Below are positions 43,237 to 51,467 of a DNA stretch of 64,000 bases, piece by piece; position 1 is the stretch's first letter; every line of letters begins with the position of its first letter. A program made the position numbers and the translations under genes. The notes below the pieces were generated by a model, which searched no databases, had not been told where the DNA came from, and was given only the letters and a program-made list of their open reading frames with translations. This stretch comes from an uncultured Bacillota bacterium (lineage in GTDB: Bacteria; Bacillota; Dehalobacteriia; UBA7702). The DNA lies in assembly GCA_902796855.1 (NCBI GenBank), contig CADBQN010000005.1:1-64000 (forward strand), given 5' to 3'.

Positions 43237-44529
43237 ATGGCGCTTTTTATCAAGGACATCGATTATCTGCCGATGACCGGCAGTCCCCAACTGAAAAGAG
43301 GCTCCATTCGCATTGAGGGACGGCGAATCACCGCCGTCGGCGCGATTTCGCCCCAATGGGGCGACGAGGTGATTTACGGTCACGACAAACTGGCGCTGCC
43401 CGGTTTCGTGAACGGTCACTGCCACGCCGCCATGACGATGTTGCGGGGGTTCGGCGAAGGTCTGCCCCTCAGGGAGTGGCTCAGCCGCGTGCAGCCCGCC
43501 GAAGCAGCCCTGCGGGAGGAGGACATCTATTGGGCCTCCCTTCTCGCTCAGATGGAAATGATGAAAGCCGGCGTCACCTGTTACGCCGATATGTATTTCA
43601 GCGAGGAATGCTCTCTTTGGGCCCTGGAGGAAAGCGGCATCCGCGCCGTGCTCGCCAACGGTCTCGTCGATGACGACGGCCGCGGCGAGGGGCGTCTCCG
43701 CGCCATGCTCCAATGGGCGGATCATTACCGTGACGACGGCCGCGGCCTGGTCTCCTTCGCCCTCGCGCCCCACGCTGTCTATTCCTGCTCCGAGCCGTTC
43801 CTCAGGGACATCGCCTTCGAGGCGCGAAAGCGGCAGCTGCCGCTCCACATCCACATCGCCGAGACCGCCGCGGAACAGGAAAGCTGCGCCGCCGCCCACG
43901 GCAGGCGGGTCCTGCCCTATCTGAGGGACATCGGTTTCCTCGACGGCCGCGTCTTCGCCGCGCACATGATTCACCTCGATGAGGAAGAAATGGACATCGC
44001 CGCGGAAAAGGACGTCCGCGTGGTGCACTGCCCGCAGAGCAACATGAAATTAGCGTCGGGGGTCCTGCCCTATCGGAGCCTCCGCCGCCGCGGCGTGACC
44101 GTCGGTCTCGGCACTGACGGCGCGGCCAGCAACAACGACCTCGATATGCTGGAAGAAACGCGCTGCGCCTCGCTGCTGCAAAAAGTCGCCTCCGGCGACG
44201 CCGCGGCGCTGCCCCCCGGGGAAGCGCTGGCCATGGCCACCCGGGAAGGGGCGAAAGCGCTGTTCCTCGACGATCAGATCGGCACCATCGAGCCGGGGAA
44301 ACTGGCGGATATCACCATTCTTTCGCTGTGGCGGCCCCACTTTTACCCGCGGAACGACGTCAACGACGTCATGAGCCACGTCGTCTACGGCGCCAAGAAC
44401 GGCGACGTCCATACCGTCATCATCAACGGCAGCGTCCGCGTCCGCGCCGGCAAATGCGTCGATATCGACGAAAGCCGCGTCTATCACGAAATACAAAAAC
44501 GCGCCGCGGGATTCTGGCGGCGTGTGTGA
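43237..44529 (+). CDS. mtaD: 5'-methylthioadenosine / S-adenosylhomocysteine deaminase
   Basis: Amidohydrolase that deaminates methylthioadenosine (and often SAH) to the inosine form. 430 residues. Metal-binding HCHAAMTMLRGFGE (residues about 65-78), the HIHIAET segment, and VGLGTDGAASNNDLDM are the family marks. It closes the three-gene salvage operon and ends at a bidirectional terminator shared with metA. Confidence 0.92.
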   Translation: MALFIKDIDYLPMTGSPQLKRGSIRIEGRRITAVGAISPQWGDEVIYGHDKLALPGFVNGHCHAAMTMLRGFGEGLPLREWLSRVQPAEAALREEDIYWASLLAQMEMMKAGVTCYADMYFSEECSLWALEESGIRAVLANGLVDDDGRGEGRLRAMLQWADHYRDDGRGLVSFALAPHAVYSCSEPFLRDIAFEARKRQLPLHIHIAETAAEQESCAAAHGRRVLPYLRDIGFLDGRVFAAHMIHLDEEEMDIAAEKDVRVVHCPQSNMKLASGVLPYRSLRRRGVTVGLGTDGAASNNDLDMLEETRCASLLQKVASGDAAALPPGEALAMATREGAKALFLDDQIGTIEPGKLADITILSLWRPHFYPRNDVNDVMSHVVYGAKNGDVHTVIINGSVRVRAGKCVDIDESRVYHEIQKRAAGFWRRV

Positions 44530-44607: not shown

Positions 44608-45585
44608 TCAGATCTGGAACTCGATGGCCTTCTTCCGTTCCTCGATCTTCACGTAGCTGTCCTCGGCGACGGGGCGCAGGTCTTTGAGGTCGTAAGGCGT
44701 CTCCTGATAGACGAGGTTCAGCCAGTTGGTGTAGGTGCAGTTGGAGCTGCTCCGCCAGGAGAGGATCGGCTCTTTGGCGGGGTCGTCGTCGGGATAGTAG
44801 TTCTTCGGGATCGTCGGCTCCAGCCCTTTGGCCACGTCGCGCTTGTATTCTTTATCCAGGTCGTAACGGTCGTATTCCGAATGTCCCGTGACAAAAATCT
44901 GCCGGGAGGAACAGGCCAGGATCAGGTAGCTGCCGGTCTCCTCGCCCTCGGCGGCGACGTAGAGCTCCGGATTGGCGCGGACGGCTTCCTCATCGATGCC
45001 GGTGTATCGGGATTGAGGCACAAAAAACTCGTCGTCCATGCCGCGCATGATGATCTTTTTGCGGTGGAGCACCCGGTGGCGGTAAACGCCGCTGAGCTTT
45101 TCCGGGAGCAGGTGTTTGGCGATGCCGTAGTGATAGTACAGACCGGCCTGGGCGCCCCAGCAGATGTGGAAGGTGGAAAAGACGTTGGTCTTGGACCATT
45201 CAAAGATCCGCGTCAGTTCCTCCCAATATTCCACCTCTTCATATTCCATCGTTTCCACCGGCGCCCCGGTGACGATGAGTCCGTCAAAGCGCTGGTCTTT
45301 GACGTCGTCAAAGGTGATGTAGAATTTGTTCAGATGGGAAGCGTCGGCGTGGGTCGACTCGTAGGAAGCCGTTTTCAAAAAGGTGATTTCCACCTGAATG
45401 GGGAAATTGGAAAGCACCCGCAAAATGTCAAGCTCCGTGTCTTCCTTCAGGGGCATCAGGTTCAGTATGGCGATCTGGAGCGGTCGGATCTCCTGGGCGT
45501 TGGCCCGGTCTTCGTCCATGACGAAGATGTTTTCCGATTCCAGCACGTTTTTTACGGGTAAGTCGTTTTGGACTTTAATAGGCAT
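44608..45585 (-). CDS. metA: Homoserine O-acetyltransferase (MetA-type)
   Basis: Acylates homoserine in the first committed step to methionine. 325 residues. Catalytic C142 lies in FHICWGAQAG, and H235 and E237 in TGHSEYD. Residue 111, which decides the acyl donor in this family, is Glu (GAPVE), the acetyl-CoA type as in Bacillus cereus; the E. coli succinyl-CoA enzyme has Gly. The start is 6 bases after the patB stop, with GAGGTGA overlapping that stop, so it is the second gene of a patB-metA operon. Confidence 0.95.
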   Translation of the reverse strand: MPIKVQNDLPVKNVLESENIFVMDEDRANAQEIRPLQIAILNLMPLKEDTELDILRVLSNFPIQVEITFLKTASYESTHADASHLNKFYITFDDVKDQRFDGLIVTGAPVETMEYEEVEYWEELTRIFEWSKTNVFSTFHICWGAQAGLYYHYGIAKHLLPEKLSGVYRHRVLHRKKIIMRGMDDEFFVPQSRYTGIDEEAVRANPELYVAAEGEETGSYLILACSSRQIFVTGHSEYDRYDLDKEYKRDVAKGLEPTIPKNYYPDDDPAKEPILSWRSSSNCTYTNWLNLVYQETPYDLKDLRPVAEDSYVKIEERKKAIEFQI

Positions 45586-45591
45586 ATCGCG

Positions 45592-46776
45592 TCACCTCTG
45601 TCTTTCTGCGCGGACGGCTCGTTTCAGGCGTTCCATGGCTTCCGCCAGCGTTTTGCGGGTACAGGCCAGGACGATCCGCTGGAACTGTTCGGCACCGCCG
45701 CCGAAGAGCCTGCCGCCGTCGAGCCACAGCTTTGCCCTGTTCAGAATGAAGTCTTCCAGCGCGTCATCGCCGAAGCCCAGGGCAGAGCAGTCGAGCCAGG
45801 CGAAGTAGGTGCCTTCCGGTTCCACGAGGCGGATCTCCGGCACGTTTTGCGCCAGTTCCGCCCGGAGAAAGTTCAGGTTCCCGCCGATATATTCTTTGCA
45901 GGCGGCGAGCCATTCGCCGCCCTCTTCGTAGGCGGCCTTCGCCGCGGCGAGGCCCATGGCGTTGAGGCCGTCGAGACCGCAGCGGCGGAGCTCCGCCCGG
46001 AATTTCTCTCTCGTGTCCCCGCCGGGGATAAAGATGTGGGACACCTGGAGCCCCGCGAGGTTAAACGTCTTGCTCGGAGCGGTGCAGACGACGGTCCGTT
46101 CGCCGAGTTCCGGGCAGACCGAATGGAACACGCGGTGGGGATGGTCGGGAAAGGCGAAATCGCAGTGGATCTCATCGGAAACGACGTAAACGCCGTACCG
46201 CTCGCAGATCGCGCCGACGGTTCTCAGTTCCTCTTCCCGCCAGACCCGGCAGACGGGGTTGTGGGGAGAGCAGAGGATCACCATCTTGACGTTCTCTTTC
46301 CGGACCCTCCGTTCAAAATCGTCAAAATCCATCTCATAGCGCCCGTTGACGAGGCGCAGCCTGTTTTCCGTCAGACGGCGGCCGTTCTCCCGGACGACGG
46401 AAAAGAACGGATAGTAGACCGGAGGTTGGATCATCACGGTGTCGCCGGGAGCGGTCAGAGCGCGCACCGCCATGGCCAGGGCGGTGACGACGCCGGGAGT
46501 CTTGACGATCCATTCCTTTTCCGCTTCCCAGCCGAAGCGGCTCTTGAACCAGGCCGTGACGGCGTCGTAATAATCGTCTTTGACGTCGCTGTAGCCGAAA
46601 ATGCCGTGTTCCGCGGCGTTCATCAGCGCTTTCCGCGCCGCCGGCGGCGCCTGGAAATCCATATCCGCCACCCAGAGGGGCAGGGCGTCGGCGGGACGGC
46701 GGAACGCTTCGGCGAAATCGTATTTCAAACTGTTGGTATGGCGGCGGTTTATTTCTCGGTCAAAATCAAAACGCAT
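45592..46776 (-). CDS. patB: PatB/MalY-type pyridoxal-phosphate C-S lyase or aminotransferase
   Basis: Fold-type I PLP enzyme, 394 residues. Members act as cystathionine beta-lyases or cysteine desulfhydrases. The family opening FDREINRRHTNSLKYDF is seen, with PLWVADMDFQ, the Asp/His segment SDEIHCDFAF, and the PLP lysine in APSKTFNLAGLQ. Pairing with metA suggests cystathionine to homocysteine conversion in methionine synthesis. It lies behind a 265-nt leader with a terminator and a competing pairing; the ribosome site is weak. Confidence 0.9.
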   Translation of the reverse strand: MRFDFDREINRRHTNSLKYDFAEAFRRPADALPLWVADMDFQAPPAARKALMNAAEHGIFGYSDVKDDYYDAVTAWFKSRFGWEAEKEWIVKTPGVVTALAMAVRALTAPGDTVMIQPPVYYPFFSVVRENGRRLTENRLRLVNGRYEMDFDDFERRVRKENVKMVILCSPHNPVCRVWREEELRTVGAICERYGVYVVSDEIHCDFAFPDHPHRVFHSVCPELGERTVVCTAPSKTFNLAGLQVSHIFIPGGDTREKFRAELRRCGLDGLNAMGLAAAKAAYEEGGEWLAACKEYIGGNLNFLRAELAQNVPEIRLVEPEGTYFAWLDCSALGFGDDALEDFILNRAKLWLDGGRLFGGGAEQFQRIVLACTRKTLAEAMERLKRAVRAERQR

Positions 46777-47041
46777 GGGATTTCTTTTCTATCCTCGGTA
46801 CGATTCCCGGCTCTTTGCCGGGGAATAAAAAAACAGGAGTTAAACAACTCCCGAACAGACGCGTATCACGAAGGCGCTTTTCCGCCGGCGCTTTTTCAGC
46901 GCGGCAAAAGAACCCGACCATACGGCGACGTTCGGGAGAAAAGCATTCGTTCGCTTTGTTGGACGGCGCGGAGCCGTTCCCCGCGGCAAAGGACCATGTC
47001 AAACAACCTCTCTGCAAGGATTTTCTCAACCTATGAGATAT
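46777..47041 (-). promoter_or_regulatory. Structured leader of patB-metA (attenuator or riboswitch candidate)
   Basis: A 265-nt untranslated leader runs from the promoter at 47076-47048 to the patB ATG. A terminator hairpin near 46853-46826 ends it early. The segment CTCCCGAAC (minus strand, 46938-46930) is exactly complementary over nine bases to GTTCGGGAG (46856-46848), which contains the 5' side of the terminator stem, so it can act as antiterminator. A hairpin GGAACGGC/GCCGTCC lies further upstream. CAGAGAGG near 47014-47007 recalls the start of an S-box, but the remaining SAM-I core is not recognisable, nor is a T-box. The ligand is unknown; methionine or SAM is the guess from the genes. 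Confidence 0.65.
46826..46853 (-). terminator. Attenuator terminator in the patB-metA leader
   Basis: On the minus strand GGAGTT (46851-46846) pairs with AACTCC (46841-46836) around GTTT, followed by TGTTTTTTTA. It lies 50 bp upstream of the patB start. Confidence 0.75.
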
Positions 47042-47047
47042 ATCTGT

Positions 47048-47076
47048 ATTATATCCCAACTCTCCGCCGCTGTCAA
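47048..47076 (-). promoter_or_regulatory. Sigma-A promoter of patB-metA
   Basis: Minus strand TTGACA (47076-47071), 17-bp spacer, TATAAT (47053-47048): full consensus. Confidence 0.85.
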
Positions 47077-47253: not shown

Positions 47254-47323
47254 CAATGTGTATTCATATATCCTGCTTGCACAGCGAATCCCGGCTCCCC
47301 CCGGGGGGAAGGAAATACAGAAA

Positions 47324-48169
47324 ATGAAAGAGTTTTCCGTTGCCCAGAAGCAAAGACTTTCGGAGCTGAACGCCGATGAGGAAATGATCGGCCGTAGCTT
47401 TGAGGATGTAAAAGAACGTGAAAAAGCTTTTAAACTTCTGGAAAAGGAATTGATAGAAGCCAATAAAGACGCCCTGTTCGCCCTGCGCGACGGCTCCCGC
47501 CGCCCGATCCAGCTGGAGATTGAGTCGGCGCTGGTGCGGTGGCTCACCGAGGAAGAGGGCTTTACCCAGGTCGTCACGCCGATTATGATTCCCCGGGACA
47601 TGCTGGCGAAAATGACCATCGGCGAAGATCATCCCCTGTTTGAACAGGTCTTTTGGGTCGACAACAAAAAATGCCTCCGCCCGATGCTGGCTCCGAATCT
47701 CTACGACGAAATGCGCTCCCTGCAAAAGATCTGGGGCAATCCCGTCCGCATCTTTGAGGTCGGCCCCTGCTTCCGCAAGGAGAGCCAGGGCGCGCGCCAT
47801 CTCAACGAGTTCACGATGCTCAACTGTGTGGAACTCGGCGGCGTGAAAGAGGGCGAGCAGATGGCCAAGCTGAAAGAGATGGCCGTTCACGCCATGGCGG
47901 CGCTGGGCATCGACGATTATGAGCTCGTCGGTGACGACAGCGTCGTCTACGGCAGCGAGCAGACCCTCGACGTCCTCGTCGACGGCATGGAGGTCGCCTC
48001 CGGCGCCTACGGGCCGCACTTTTTGGACGATCAGTGGGGCATTTTCGATCCCTGGGTCGGCTTTGGCTTTGGCATTGAGCGCCTGGCGATGATGAAAAAG
48101 AAATACCGCAACATCAAGCGGGTGGGCCGCAGCCTGAAATACCTGAACGGCGCGCGGCTGAATATATAA
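47324..48169 (+). CDS. pylSc: Pyrrolysyl-tRNA synthetase, catalytic subunit PylSc
   Basis: Class II aminoacyl-tRNA synthetase that attaches pyrrolysine to tRNA-Pyl. The 281 residues match the bacterial C-terminal catalytic protein, as in Desulfitobacterium. Motif 2 is FEVGPCFRKESQGARHLNEF, and motif 3 WVGFGFGIERLAMM is near the end. KMTIGEDHPLFEQVFW and KCLRPMLAPNLYDE form the substrate pocket. N167 (TMLNC) corresponds to the pyrrolysine-binding Asn of archaeal PylS. The start is ATG 47324; an in-frame GTG at 47258 lies at the expected transcript start. The tRNA-binding N-terminal domain is encoded separately at 53600. Confidence 0.96.
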   Translation: MKEFSVAQKQRLSELNADEEMIGRSFEDVKEREKAFKLLEKELIEANKDALFALRDGSRRPIQLEIESALVRWLTEEEGFTQVVTPIMIPRDMLAKMTIGEDHPLFEQVFWVDNKKCLRPMLAPNLYDEMRSLQKIWGNPVRIFEVGPCFRKESQGARHLNEFTMLNCVELGGVKEGEQMAKLKEMAVHAMAALGIDDYELVGDDSVVYGSEQTLDVLVDGMEVASGAYGPHFLDDQWGIFDPWVGFGFGIERLAMMKKKYRNIKRVGRSLKYLNGARLNI

Positions 48170-48266
48170 CGCGCCTGATTTTACTCCACACTCCGTGAAT
48201 CAACGAATGAACAAAAAAACCGATTTATCTGTAAATCATCGGTGAGAGAAAGAGGTTTTGAACGAT

Positions 48267-49070
48267 ATGACCAGATTAACGACGGAATGGATTAAAAATA
48301 TGAAAAACGAGCTGCCCGAGTGGGGGCGGGGACTGGAAGAAATGACCCATATGTCCCCGCTGAATCTCGCCGCCGTCGGCGGCGATGTCTCCCGGGGCCG
48401 CATCAACAGCGCCTCCTGGCGGATCAAAGTGGCCGTTGTCCCGGTGACCCAGGGCGAAGGCATCATCGACACTTTCTGCGAACAGGTCGCCGCCATCGTC
48501 GCCTACATGGGCTTTGAGGTCTTCGTCACCGAGCAGACCGATGTCTGGGGCATCTATGAAGCCACGCAGAAGGGCGCCGGCATTATCTTCCTTGCCGACG
48601 ATATGTATTTCCTGGCGCTGAATATGTCGAAGAACGTCGTTGTGGAAAATTCCGACGCCACGGCCAGAGGCTTCGTCGCCGCGCTGGAAGGCGCCGCCGG
48701 CGGGCTCCGTGACCGCGCCGTTCTCGTTCTCGGCGGCGGCCGCGTCGGCAAAGCCGCTCTCTCCTTCCTCCGGTGCCGCGGCGCCGAAGGCGTCGTCTTT
48801 GATACCGATCCCGAAGTGTTGAAAGACCGCGCCGCCGAGGGCTGGCGCACCATTAAGACGAAGGAAGAAATCAAAGAATTCGACCTCATCGTGGACTGCA
48901 CCCCCGAAGGGAACTGGCTCACGCCGGACATGCTCCATCCCGACACTCTCTTCGCTTCCCCTGGTGTGCCCCTTTCCCTGACGCCGGAAGCGGAAAAGAT
49001 GCTGGAAGGGCGGATCATCCACGATCTGCTGCAGTTGGGGGTTATAACCATGCTGGTCATGGCCTGCTGA
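48267..49070 (+). CDS. pylD: Pyrrolysine biosynthesis dehydrogenase PylD
   Basis: Catalyses the last step, oxidation and ring closure of the lysine-derived dipeptide (3-methylornithyl-lysine) to pyrrolysine. 267 residues from ATG 48267. PylD features are GGDVSRGRINSASWRIKVA near residue 38, VVPVTQGEGII, and the NAD-binding Rossmann loop VLGGGRVGK (about 154-162). The stop codon is the first part of a long dyad that begins at 49067. It is 97 bp downstream of pylSc with no clear terminator between, so it is probably cotranscribed with it. Here pylD precedes pylT, pylB and pylC, unlike the common BCD order. Confidence 0.95.
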   Translation: MTRLTTEWIKNMKNELPEWGRGLEEMTHMSPLNLAAVGGDVSRGRINSASWRIKVAVVPVTQGEGIIDTFCEQVAAIVAYMGFEVFVTEQTDVWGIYEATQKGAGIIFLADDMYFLALNMSKNVVVENSDATARGFVAALEGAAGGLRDRAVLVLGGGRVGKAALSFLRCRGAEGVVFDTDPEVLKDRAAEGWRTIKTKEEIKEFDLIVDCTPEGNWLTPDMLHPDTLFASPGVPLSLTPEAEKMLEGRIIHDLLQLGVITMLVMAC

Positions 49071-49194
49071 GGAAGACGCTAAAGGCTGATAATCGGCGAA
49101 CCCGCTGAAACGCGACTGTTCGCAACCGAAAGGTTCGCGAACATCCGCGCTCCATCGGTTTCACCGATTCTAAGCCTTGATCGTCTCCCTCAGG
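49067..49194. repeat. Long imperfect inverted repeat after pylD
   Basis: The left arm (49067-49115, beginning CTGAGGAAGACGCTAAAGGC) and the right arm (49146-49194, minus strand beginning CTGAGGGAGACGATCAAGGC) match at about 38 of 48 positions. Several mismatches become G-U pairs in a minus-strand RNA. An inner hairpin TGTTCGCAACC/GGTTCGCGAACA with GAAA loop fills the centre, so the whole can fold as one stem of about 128 nt. The right arm is duplicated about 210 bp downstream. Confidence 0.7.
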
Positions 49195-49218
49195 AGAGCG
49201 TGCGTTGCTCTTTTTTTT
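49195..49218 (+). terminator. Intrinsic terminator in repeat unit A
   Basis: AGAGC (49195-49199) pairs with GCTCT (49207-49211), followed by eight T. It would end the pylSc-pylD transcript. Confidence 0.6.
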
Positions 49219-49405
49219 GCGCAAAAAGCGTGAAAAGCCGACGGCAGGCGCCCGGCAAGGGCAGCCCGCCTCCGTCTTTCCCCGCTTTCACCGGCTCTGA
49301 CCCGTCCTCGATTGCCTGATACGCTGTGAGGGAATGAATCGGTTGAAAGAACCTCCGCGCTCCATCGGTTTCACCGATTCTAAGCCTTGATCGTCTCCCT
49401 CAGGA

Positions 49406-49430
49406 GAGCGTGCGTCGCTCCTTTTTTTTT
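49406..49430 (+). terminator. Intrinsic terminator in repeat unit B
   Basis: GAGCG (49406-49410) pairs with CGCTC (49416-49420), followed by nine T. The stem differs from unit A yet pairing is kept. Confidence 0.6.
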
Positions 49431-49568
49431 GCGCAAAAAACGTGAAAAGCCGACGGCAGGCGCCCGGCAAGGGCAGCCCGCCTCTGTCTTTCCCCGCTTT
49501 CACCGGTTCTGACCCGTCCTCGGTTGCCTGATACGTTTTGAGGAAATGAATTTGACTGAAAGAATTTT

Positions 49569-49600
49569 TCATCCGGCTTTGTCGGATGATTTTGTTTTTC
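49569..49600 (+). terminator. Third terminator in series upstream of the pyl membrane gene
   Basis: TCATCCG (49569-49575) pairs with CGGATGA (49583-49589), then TTTTGTTTTT. It isolates the next gene, whose -35 region overlaps the T run. Confidence 0.7.
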
Positions 49601-49618
49601 GGGCGGGTATGATATAAT
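49592..49618 (+). promoter_or_regulatory. Extended -10 promoter of the pyl-embedded membrane gene
   Basis: TGATATAAT (49610-49618) is an extended -10 element; the -35 is weak (TTGTTT, 49592-49597, 15-bp spacing). Confidence 0.65.
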
Positions 49619-49648
49619 GACGGCAGTGAAAGAAAGGAGGGGATTTAA

Positions 49649-50125
49649 ACGCGTTTCGGTTTTTCTTATGTGGGGCTTCTTTGGATTTTGATGCTGACGG
49701 TGCCGAATCTTCTCTGGGCGAAGCGGCAGCCCGAAGGGTACGCGGAAGCGGCCGCCGCGGAAAACAGGGTATTGCTCGTTCTGGAGCGCGTCGGCGAGGT
49801 GCTCGTGACCGGCCTCGCCCTGGTCTCCGCCGATCTCAATCCGCGGCCCTGGTCGCTTTCATCGCTGTGGCTGGCGCTGTCCTTTGTTCTGATGCTGATG
49901 TACGAGGGTTATTGGCTCCGCTATTTCCGCGGCCCGCGGACGCTGGCCGATATGTACGCGAGCTTTCTCGGCGTTCCCGTCGCCGGGGCGGTCCTGCCGG
50001 TGGCGGCCTTTTTCGCCCTGGCGCTCTACGGGCGGAATCTGCCCCTGTTCATTGCCGTCTGCGTCCTCGGCGTGGGACACATCGGCATTCATCTTTCTCA
50101 CCGCCGCCGGATCCGTTCAAGATAG
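49649..50125 (+). CDS. Small membrane protein in the pyl cluster, likely ACG start, UAG stop
   Basis: A 158-residue protein of unknown function. Hydrophobic helices lie near residues 8-20, 45-60, 70-88, 105-125 and 130-145. Homologue-like N-termini of the form FGFSYVGLxxLxMLxxPNLxWxK are known to me from Clostridia hypothetical proteins. AGGAGGGG (49636-49642) points to codon 49649, which is ACG, not ATG; the first normal start in frame is GTG 49670, too far away (28 nt) and inside the first helix. Either ACG is used or the start is damaged. It ends UAG (50123-50125), with UGA three codons later. Its place directly before pylT is unexplained. Confidence 0.65.
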   Translation, partial: TRFGFSYVGLLWILMLTVPNLLWAKRQPEGYAEAAAAENRVLLVLERVGEVLVTGLALVSADLNPRPWSLSSLWLALSFVLMLMYEGYWLRYFRGPRTLADMYASFLGVPVAGAVLPVAAFFALALYGRNLPLFIAVCVLGVGHIGIHLSHRRRIRSR

Positions 50126-50207
50126 CGTTCGTTCTGAAAATGGTTATCATTTTTCTGTTTTGATAAAAAAACCCTTTTATTCAGGATGAAAATATTTTTG
50201 AAAAACC

Positions 50208-50236
50208 TTGATATTATGTTGTCCCTGTGCTATAAT
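50208..50236 (+). promoter_or_regulatory. Sigma-A promoter of pylT
   Basis: TTGATA (50208-50213), 17-bp spacer, TATAAT (50231-50236), 16 bp before the mature tRNA 5' end. Confidence 0.85.
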
Positions 50237-50252
50237 TGGATTGATCTCACAT

Positions 50253-50325
50253 GGGGGGTGGATCGTTATTGATCATATAGACTCTAAATCTATGCAGCCG
50301 GGTGAAACTCCCGGACTCCCCGCCA
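50253..50325 (+). tRNA. pylT: tRNA-Pyl, amber suppressor (anticodon CTA)
   Basis: A 73-nt gene with encoded CCA. The acceptor stem GGGGGGT/ACTCCCC has one G-U pair. The D stem is GATC/GATC with a six-base loop. The anticodon stem has six pairs (TATAGA/TCTATG) around loop CTCTAAA, anticodon CTA at 50284-50286. The variable loop is only three bases (CAG), and the T arm is CCGGG-TGAAACT-CCCGG without TTC. A six-pair anticodon stem, a one-base D-anticodon linker, a short variable loop and missing T-psi-C are the hallmarks of tRNA-Pyl. Discriminator base is G. A consensus promoter and a terminator flank it, so it is its own transcript or the head of pylBC. Confidence 0.97.
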
Positions 50326-50358
50326 GAAAAAAGACAGAGTTTTCTGAGATAATACACT

Positions 50359-50385
50359 GAGCCGGGTTTCCGGCTCTTTGTTTTT
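50359..50385 (+). terminator. Intrinsic terminator between pylT and pylB
   Basis: GAGCCGG (50359-50365) pairs with CCGGCTC (50370-50376), loop GTTT, then TTTGTTTTT. pylB translation begins 39 bp beyond, so pylB depends on read-through or on an unseen promoter. Confidence 0.85.
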
Positions 50386-50423
50386 AAGAGATCGCTTTGG
50401 GAGATACAGAGGAGAGACAGAGA

Positions 50424-51467
50424 ATGAGAGAGAAAGACATCATCAGGGGTTTGGCGGAAAACGGCAGAGCCGACCGGGAAGACCTCGTGACGCTGCTTCA
50501 GACGGAAAACGAAGACGTTCTGGAAGAGCTCTTCGCCGCCGCGCGGGAGCTGCGCCAACGCCATTTCGGCGACAAAATTTTTACGTACGGCTTTGTGTAC
50601 TTTTCCACTTATTGCCGGAACAACTGCAATTTTTGCTTCTTCCGCCGCGACAACGGGGATACGATCCGCTACCGGAAAAACCGTGAGGAAGTCCTCGCCA
50701 TCGCCAAAGAGCTGGCGGATTCCGGCGTCAACCTGATCGACCTGACGTTGGGGGAAGACCCCGAACTGCATAAAGAGGGCTTTCGTTCCATGCTGGATCT
50801 CGTCGATGACATCCACGCTGAGGTGGACCGTCCCGTGATGATCTCGCCCGGCGTCATCAGCGACGAGCTCATTCAGGAATTCGCCCGGCGCAACGCCGAG
50901 TTCTACGCCCTCTATCAGGAGACCTATAACCGCGGCCTCTTCAAAAAGCTTCGCATCCATCAGGATTACGACGAACGGCTCCACGCCAAGATCAAAGCCA
51001 GGGAATGCGGCATGCTCATCGAGGAGGGGCTGATGACCGGTCTCGGCGAGACCGCCGGGGACATCGCCGACGCGCTTCTCGCCATGCGGGAGCTGAAACC
51101 GAGCCAGGTCCGGGTGATGACCTTTGTGCCGCAGAATGGCACACCGATGGAGGATTTTGAGCCGCAGAACCACGATATGGAACTGAAAATCATCGCCCTG
51201 ATGCGGCTGCTGAACCATCAGGCGCTGATTCCCGCCTCCCTCGACGTGGAAGGCATCGAAGGTCTCGAAAGCCGGATCAACGCCGGCTGCAACGTCGTGA
51301 CCTCGATCATCCCGCCGACGTCGGGACTGGCCGGCGTCGCCCAGAGCACCATGGACGTCGGCGAAGGGTACCGCACCGTCGCCGGGGTCGAACCCCGTCT
51401 CAAAGCCCTCGGCCTCCGCGTCGCCGACAGCGACGAATACAAAGCCTGGCTGAAGGAAGCGCGATGA
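50424..51467 (+). CDS. pylB: Methylornithine synthase PylB (radical SAM)
   Basis: Rearranges lysine to (2R,3R)-3-methylornithine, the first step of pyrrolysine synthesis. 347 residues. The cluster motif is C64-x3-C68-x2-C71 (STYCRNNCNFCFF). The TIM-barrel continues with NLIDLTLGEDPELHKEGF, and the C-terminus has MTFVPQNGTPMED as in BioB-like enzymes. The start is ATG 50424 with GAGGAGAG upstream; a TTG 27 bases earlier is in frame but inside the ribosome-site region. The stop overlaps the pylC start. Confidence 0.95.
   Translation: MREKDIIRGLAENGRADREDLVTLLQTENEDVLEELFAAARELRQRHFGDKIFTYGFVYFSTYCRNNCNFCFFRRDNGDTIRYRKNREEVLAIAKELADSGVNLIDLTLGEDPELHKEGFRSMLDLVDDIHAEVDRPVMISPGVISDELIQEFARRNAEFYALYQETYNRGLFKKLRIHQDYDERLHAKIKARECGMLIEEGLMTGLGETAGDIADALLAMRELKPSQVRVMTFVPQNGTPMEDFEPQNHDMELKIIALMRLLNHQALIPASLDVEGIEGLESRINAGCNVVTSIIPPTSGLAGVAQSTMDVGEGYRTVAGVEPRLKALGLRVADSDEYKAWLKEAR

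Follow-up and report, generated by a model that had tools for sequence, protein, structure and literature searches.

The trp and his operons of Escherichia coli are the classical examples of amino-acid leader-peptide attenuation. T-boxes and riboswitches are the dominant devices of Bacillota, and leader-peptide attenuators are regarded as rare there (PMC2965389); examples act on His for hisS/hisZ (PMC2965389) and on Leu for ilv–leu of Staphylococcus aureus (PMC5794164). In the mycobacterial cys operons, Cys-coded leader open reading frames (ORFs) precede sulfur assimilation genes; these ORFs carry Cys runs near the stop codon, lack a conserved intrinsic terminator and have been termed leaderless (PMC1262725; Canestrari et al. 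2020, as cited in PMC13236596). The uORFC-8-2 element, found ahead of cysS in Rhodobacterales, has tandem Cys codons followed by an intrinsic terminator (PMC8632094).

Here we describe a leader upstream of patB–metA in the window, the 64,000-nt stretch of DNA from an uncultured Bacillota bacterium that was analysed, together with its relatives in other genomes. The leader is very probably a ribosome-mediated (leader-peptide) transcription attenuator. Its family resembles trp and his in combining a short ORF with control codons, competing antiterminator and terminator structures, and biosynthetic or transport genes on the 3′ side. It departs from them in that the 5′ arm of the antiterminator (strand a) lies inside the ORF, 3′ of the control codons, with the stop codon 25–58 nt past strand a rather than just before it, and in that the controlled genes are sulfur amino-acid genes of Bacillota. 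Unlike the mycobacterial cys ORFs, members of the family have a terminator and carry their Cys codons before a conserved Arg–Met pair, well 5′ of the stop, and no common sequence was seen. The uORFC-8-2 element shares the logic that we infer for the family but, going by its description, is set apart by phylum and target gene. The His and Leu attenuators, likewise compared by description, belong to the same phylum and use the same kind of mechanism, with other amino acids and genes.

Organization of the patB–metA leader

An earlier note on this locus had claimed a consensus promoter, a 265-nt leader and a terminator, all of which were confirmed on the minus strand (Table 1). The exact nine-base antiterminator complement that it had also reported is the pairing between strand a and a second segment, strand c; because strand c is common to both structures, the antiterminator and the intrinsic terminator are mutually exclusive. 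Absent from that anatomy was a small ORF overlapping the switch, and strand a falls within the residues F-S-R-T that it encodes. Shuffles of the region gave a chance expectation of 0.8 for promoter-like sites matching at least 9 of 12 positions. Chance alone would give the terminator scan 1.3 sites of this kind, and the terminator hairpin is therefore little proof on its own.

Table 1 Features of the patB–metA leader and the genes it precedes, in window coordinates
Feature	Position	Strand	Basis or remark
Sigma-70 promoter, TTGACA-17-TATAAT	47048..47076	minus	12/12 consensus positions
Leader RNA, untranslated, ~265 nt	46777..47041	minus	From sequence; start inferred ~7 nt past the −10 box
Shine–Dalgarno (SD) AGAGAGG of leader ORF	47007..47013	minus	9 nt 5′ of ATG
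Leader ORF, 33 codons, MVLCRGERLRAVQQSERMLFSRTSPYGRVLLPR, TGA stop	46896..46997	minus	SD-led frame open in 47/47 family members
CGAATG, conserved Arg–Met codons 17–18	46944..46949	minus	Switch point in ribosome-mask folding
Strand a, CTCCCGAAC, antiterminator 5′ arm within leader ORF	46930..46938	minus	Helix with strand c covaries; exact 9-nt complement of strand c
Strand b, TCGGG, local hairpin with CCCGA of strand a	46913..46917	minus	Weaker support than a:c
Strand c, GTTCGGGAG, antiterminator 3′ arm and terminator 5′ arm	46848..46856	minus	Sequence and covariation
Intrinsic terminator, CGGGAGTTGTTTAACTCCTG plus T7	46827..46853 (hairpin 46853–46834)	minus	Hairpin −9.8 kcal/mol; retained in relatives
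patB/malY, PLP-dependent C–S lyase (cystathionine beta-lyase type), first controlled gene	45592..46776	minus	TIGR04350, 447.9 bits (cut-off 340); ATG at 46776
metA, homoserine O-acyltransferase, second controlled gene	44608..45585	minus	NF047918 MetA_acetyl, 450.7 bits (below cut-off 460.5); PF04204

A second GC-rich hairpin lies 3′ of the terminator (46825–46803, minus strand). The beginning of the leader ORF, CTTTGCCGCGGGGAA, and the 5′ arm of this hairpin, TTCCCCGGCAAAG, are close to complementary. In the minimum-energy structure of the full leader, codons 2–8 pair with this hairpin; because this pairing is not evident in the same-genus genome G001, it was left out of our model. The divergent neighbours (47258–51467, plus strand) have the look of a pyrrolysine cluster, with a class II synthetase-like PylS piece (Pfam) and, next to it, PylD- and PylB-like ORFs recognized by eye. 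The gene convergent to metA (43237–44529, plus strand) looks by eye like an amidohydrolase of the SAH/MTA deaminase type, which would be another sulfur/methyl-cycle gene.

Comparison with known RNA classes

The earlier note could read neither SAM-I nor T-box cores in the leader and had proposed an Rfam search, which indeed places the leader in no known class. It has zero matches to Rfam 15 at gathering score and nothing credible when the search is relaxed to E = 10, where the best matches, leuA-Halobacteria and ncS16, were rejected as far under their cut-offs. SAM-I and the other Rfam SAM/SAH riboswitch models gave no match in the window or in 20 family loci, nor did the T-box model in the window (to E = 10) or in the same number of family loci; this model does detect T-boxes elsewhere in the window's genome. 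SAM-I (RF00162) and T-box (RF00230) elements share with our leader terminator-based control of sulfur or amino-acid genes in Bacillota, but the leader is without an aptamer or tRNA-binding core. The window's genome has one SAM-I match (L223, G000 contig C29, 51.3 bits), about 75 nt 5′ of an ORF that by eye resembles N-formylglutamate amidohydrolase, an unusual SAM-I partner.

A family of related leaders

In 60 relatives, plain BLAST of the leader returned one true homologue, at locus L032 of G001; the other matches were short GC-rich chance similarity. The L032 leader lies directly 5′ of metA, adjoins the same synthetase-like gene, aligns with the window leader in two blocks of 94% and 81% identity, has identical promoter hexamers and encodes MTIFTIAKPNGRMLFSRASADDRVFSRG. 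Promoter, frame, strands a, b and c, and terminator are kept between these two leaders, the rest of which is widely different. Of the patB genes in the collected genomes, the nearest comes from an Oscillibacter metagenome-assembled genome (L051) and belongs to a cystathionine lyase–patB pair with a leader ahead of it. All three leaders contain CGAATGCTnnnCTCCCG, read R-M-L-x-S-R, and this pattern occurs 21 times across the 394 L051-order genomes, where a reversed control gave 0; 12 of the matches sit in leaders with an ORF and terminator, and the other 9 (for example, L143, L146 and L147) were dropped because they are not leaders.

Searching by strands a and c only, with no ORF required, yielded an extra leader, L164, in which CGAATGCT is preceded by Cys-Cys-Cys. 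A covariance model built from 19 sequences and then used for genome searches found 5 strong leaders, the window's among them, in 399 phylum genomes, about 9 among the 189 genomes searched from another order, and matches in 27 of the 394 L051-order genomes, one of which has four. With weak matches (L171–L183, L192 and L219) left out of the count, the family totals 47 distinct leaders in Bacillota genomes. Of the 80 closest patB loci, L051 alone scored as a full member, patB homologues being generally without the leader; metA of G002 and G003 (53% identical) has no leader by scoring, and the leader peptide had no tblastn match in plasmids. Four copies in genome G061 (L204, L220, L221 and L222) stand before different sulfur genes and make up a small regulon.

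The SD-led ORF runs through strand a in every member; the other two frames are open there in 10 and 20. Between related leader ORFs, substitutions number 531 at the third codon position against 324 and 269 at the others, in pairs that are not independent. Arg–Met and Ser–Arg are near-invariant, with Arg–Met conserved in 43 of 47 leaders regardless of the downstream gene. Cys makes up 11.3% of residues 5′ of Arg–Met, and 42 leaders have a Cys codon at most three codons 5′ of the pair (FRCG-RM, MCC-RM, CCC-RM). The exceptions are the window, G001, L202 (Met-Met), L211 and L218. In a sub-family of three (L215, L216 and L217), Cys-Cys-Cys-Ile-Ser-Ser-Arg replaces Arg–Met, and the Cys codons belong to an outer stem that differs from the usual one and is very stable. 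For the Arg that precedes Met, 43 of 47 leaders use CGA and one uses CGG; CGA, a rare and slowly read codon, may be kept here for RNA pairing or pausing.

The window leader is an atypical member of the family. Its residues before Arg–Met are Gln-Ser-Glu, with Ser where FRCG leaders carry Cys, and its sulfur amino-acid codons are Cys4 and Met18 only; the G001 leader has Met only, without Cys.

Most leaders precede metY. Others precede metNI (MetN), cystine-type amino-acid ABC transporters, sulfonate-type (SsuA-like) binding proteins, YeiH-like transporters, cystathionine lyase–patB, metA or patB–metA. Over the −35 box, about 60–105 nt 5′ of the leader ATG, several members (L200, L201, L164, L186, L215 and others) carry the palindrome ACCTATTGACA-n-TAGG, a loose form of which (ACCTA-N8-TAGG-like) is matched by 36 of 47. 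An Rrf2-type regulator gene is often near the palindrome leaders, beside metY or metA in L170 (357–761) and L133, and palindrome and Rrf2 gene together are likely to form a second, CymR-like layer of control.

Covariation and ribosome-dependent folding

Comparison of relatives, also proposed in the earlier note, provides the strongest support for the observed switch. On MAFFT alignments built without structure, the a:c helix is paired in 98.2% of cells for 19 sequences and 95.2% for 42, and across the 42 it covaries, with 25 double-change cells against 8.2 in shuffles. None of 500 shuffles reached its covariation score, its paired percentage or its double-change count, and controls with slid partners were at most 55% paired, although neither control fully removes relatedness among the sequences. 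Pair 45/172, for example, occurs as G–C in 22 sequences, A–U in 13 and G–U in 7, and the tenth pair takes five types. The local a:b hairpin is less well supported, with pairing in 85.9% of cells over 19 sequences. About one-third of members have a strong outer stem that joins the codons around CGA-ATG to sequence 3′ of strand b; it is most striking in L215–L217, where Cys codons replace CGA-ATG and the long stem stays.

Folding with a ribosome mask links these helices to translation of the ORF. When the A site was placed one codon before Arg, the antiterminator exceeded 0.9 in 36 of 38 members. Placed over strand a instead, the ribosome gave a mean of 0.83 for the terminator and 0 for the antiterminator. 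With the upstream strand covered, the local hairpin is less stable, its median energy going from −21 to −13 kcal/mol. For the window leader, folded codon by codon with all RNA behind the ribosome treated as unavailable, a stall anywhere in codons 1–16 leaves the antiterminator at 0.97 or more, and from codon 19 on the terminator forms mainly or solely, the exact step varying slightly with the assumed footprint. This sharp change between codons 16 and 19 suggests that the switch reads ribosome passage of Arg–Met. A point against the attenuator is that many leaders, the window's included, still favour the antiterminator at equilibrium when no ribosome is present or when it stands at the stop codon; termination must accordingly depend on timing or on how ribosomes occupy the RNA.

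Proposed mechanism

In the mechanism that we propose, RNA polymerase would start at the consensus promoter and a ribosome would follow on the leader ORF. Halted before Arg–Met, the ribosome would leave strand a free to pair with strand c, no terminator would form, and patB–metA would be transcribed. With the ribosome over strand a, or with strand a held in the a:b hairpin, strand c would instead pair with its own downstream arm, ending transcription before patB. The usual halt in the family would be the Cys codon one to three codons before Arg–Met, such that a shortage of Cys-tRNA would turn on sulfur amino-acid genes across the family.

The ORF with its SD, the alternative covarying helices, the gene context and the placement of Cys codons form the computed basis of this mechanism, from which we infer leader translation, ribosome stalling and tRNA sensing. 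The most likely sensor is the ribosome itself, reading charged tRNA, and Cys-tRNA shortage is the natural reading of the codons and gene context as the family signal. As the Cys control codon of the window leader has been replaced, its own trigger may be the residual Cys4, the Met of Arg–Met, or none.

Alternative explanations

The same attenuator might have been retuned to methionine in the window's genus, with a ribosome waiting at Met18 deciding the fold; we consider this possible, though not clearly favoured, and on balance somewhat doubtful. Met18 is the sole sulfur amino-acid codon at the switch point, both metA-controlling leaders (window and L032) have lost Cys and keep Arg–Met, and the MetN leader L202 reads Met-Met-Arg-Met. 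A stall at Met18 keeps the antiterminator at 0.70 or 0.47 for ribosomal leading edges of +9 and +11, but at only 0.11 for +13; moreover, Arg–Met is kept whatever the gene, which the RNA stem may explain, and Cys4 could still act. Loss of the Cys control codon in both species of the genus could also mean that the window leader is a degenerate relic, with control left to the promoter alone through, for example, an Rrf2/CymR-like repressor, as the palindromes and Rrf2 genes of many relatives might suggest. This is unlikely: a palindrome scan of the window found none, and the promoter, the frame, the three strands and the terminator have been kept between two species whose leaders otherwise diverge.

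Two further explanations would take the signal away from charged tRNA. The TnaC and ErmC leaders are nascent-chain arrest peptides, and near-invariant Arg–Met and Ser–Arg could likewise reflect an R-M-x-x-S-R motif that stalls the ribosome together with a bound effector. However, strand a dictates Ser–Arg, and the Arg of Arg–Met is nearly always encoded by CGA, which suggests constraint at the RNA level, and L215–L217 are without Arg–Met yet keep a matching stem and Cys-Cys-Cys; we regard arrest as very unlikely. The earlier note had favoured SAM or methionine as the sensed ligand, and a complete terminator/antiterminator pair ahead of methionine genes, outside Rfam, could indeed be the platform of a new riboswitch class with an aptamer for SAM, SAH, methionine or homocysteine. 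We found no aptamer core shared by the leaders, though: the conserved blocks are the Cys-Arg-Met-x-x-Ser-Arg region of the ORF and its long-range partner, in leaders that all have an SD-led ORF enriched in Cys before Arg–Met. An aptamer riboswitch is accordingly unlikely, and a new class of this kind highly improbable. The note's switch for sulfur amino-acid genes thus stands as an attenuator and not as a small-molecule aptamer; its 'diverged or new class' is right in lying outside all Rfam classes, but the known leader-peptide mechanism fits better than a riboswitch.

Implications

The leader family was not found in Rfam 15 or in the open-access literature, to which the search was confined, and the attenuator family is apparently undescribed: the class of mechanism is old, but what appears to be new is this family, together with the sulfur regulon under it. 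We put forward tentatively, as less probable than not, the combined proposal that, in Bacillota of gut and rumen, a whole regulon of sulfur amino-acid genes is under one homologous, transferable attenuator module and that the metA leaders of the window's genus shifted from Cys to Met specificity by control-codon change with the RNA switch kept. The family would represent a sulfur regulon, in common gut bacteria, of a kind missed by searches for riboswitches, and would assign a function to many small unannotated ORFs, and it offers a testable case in which control codons change while the RNA switch is conserved.
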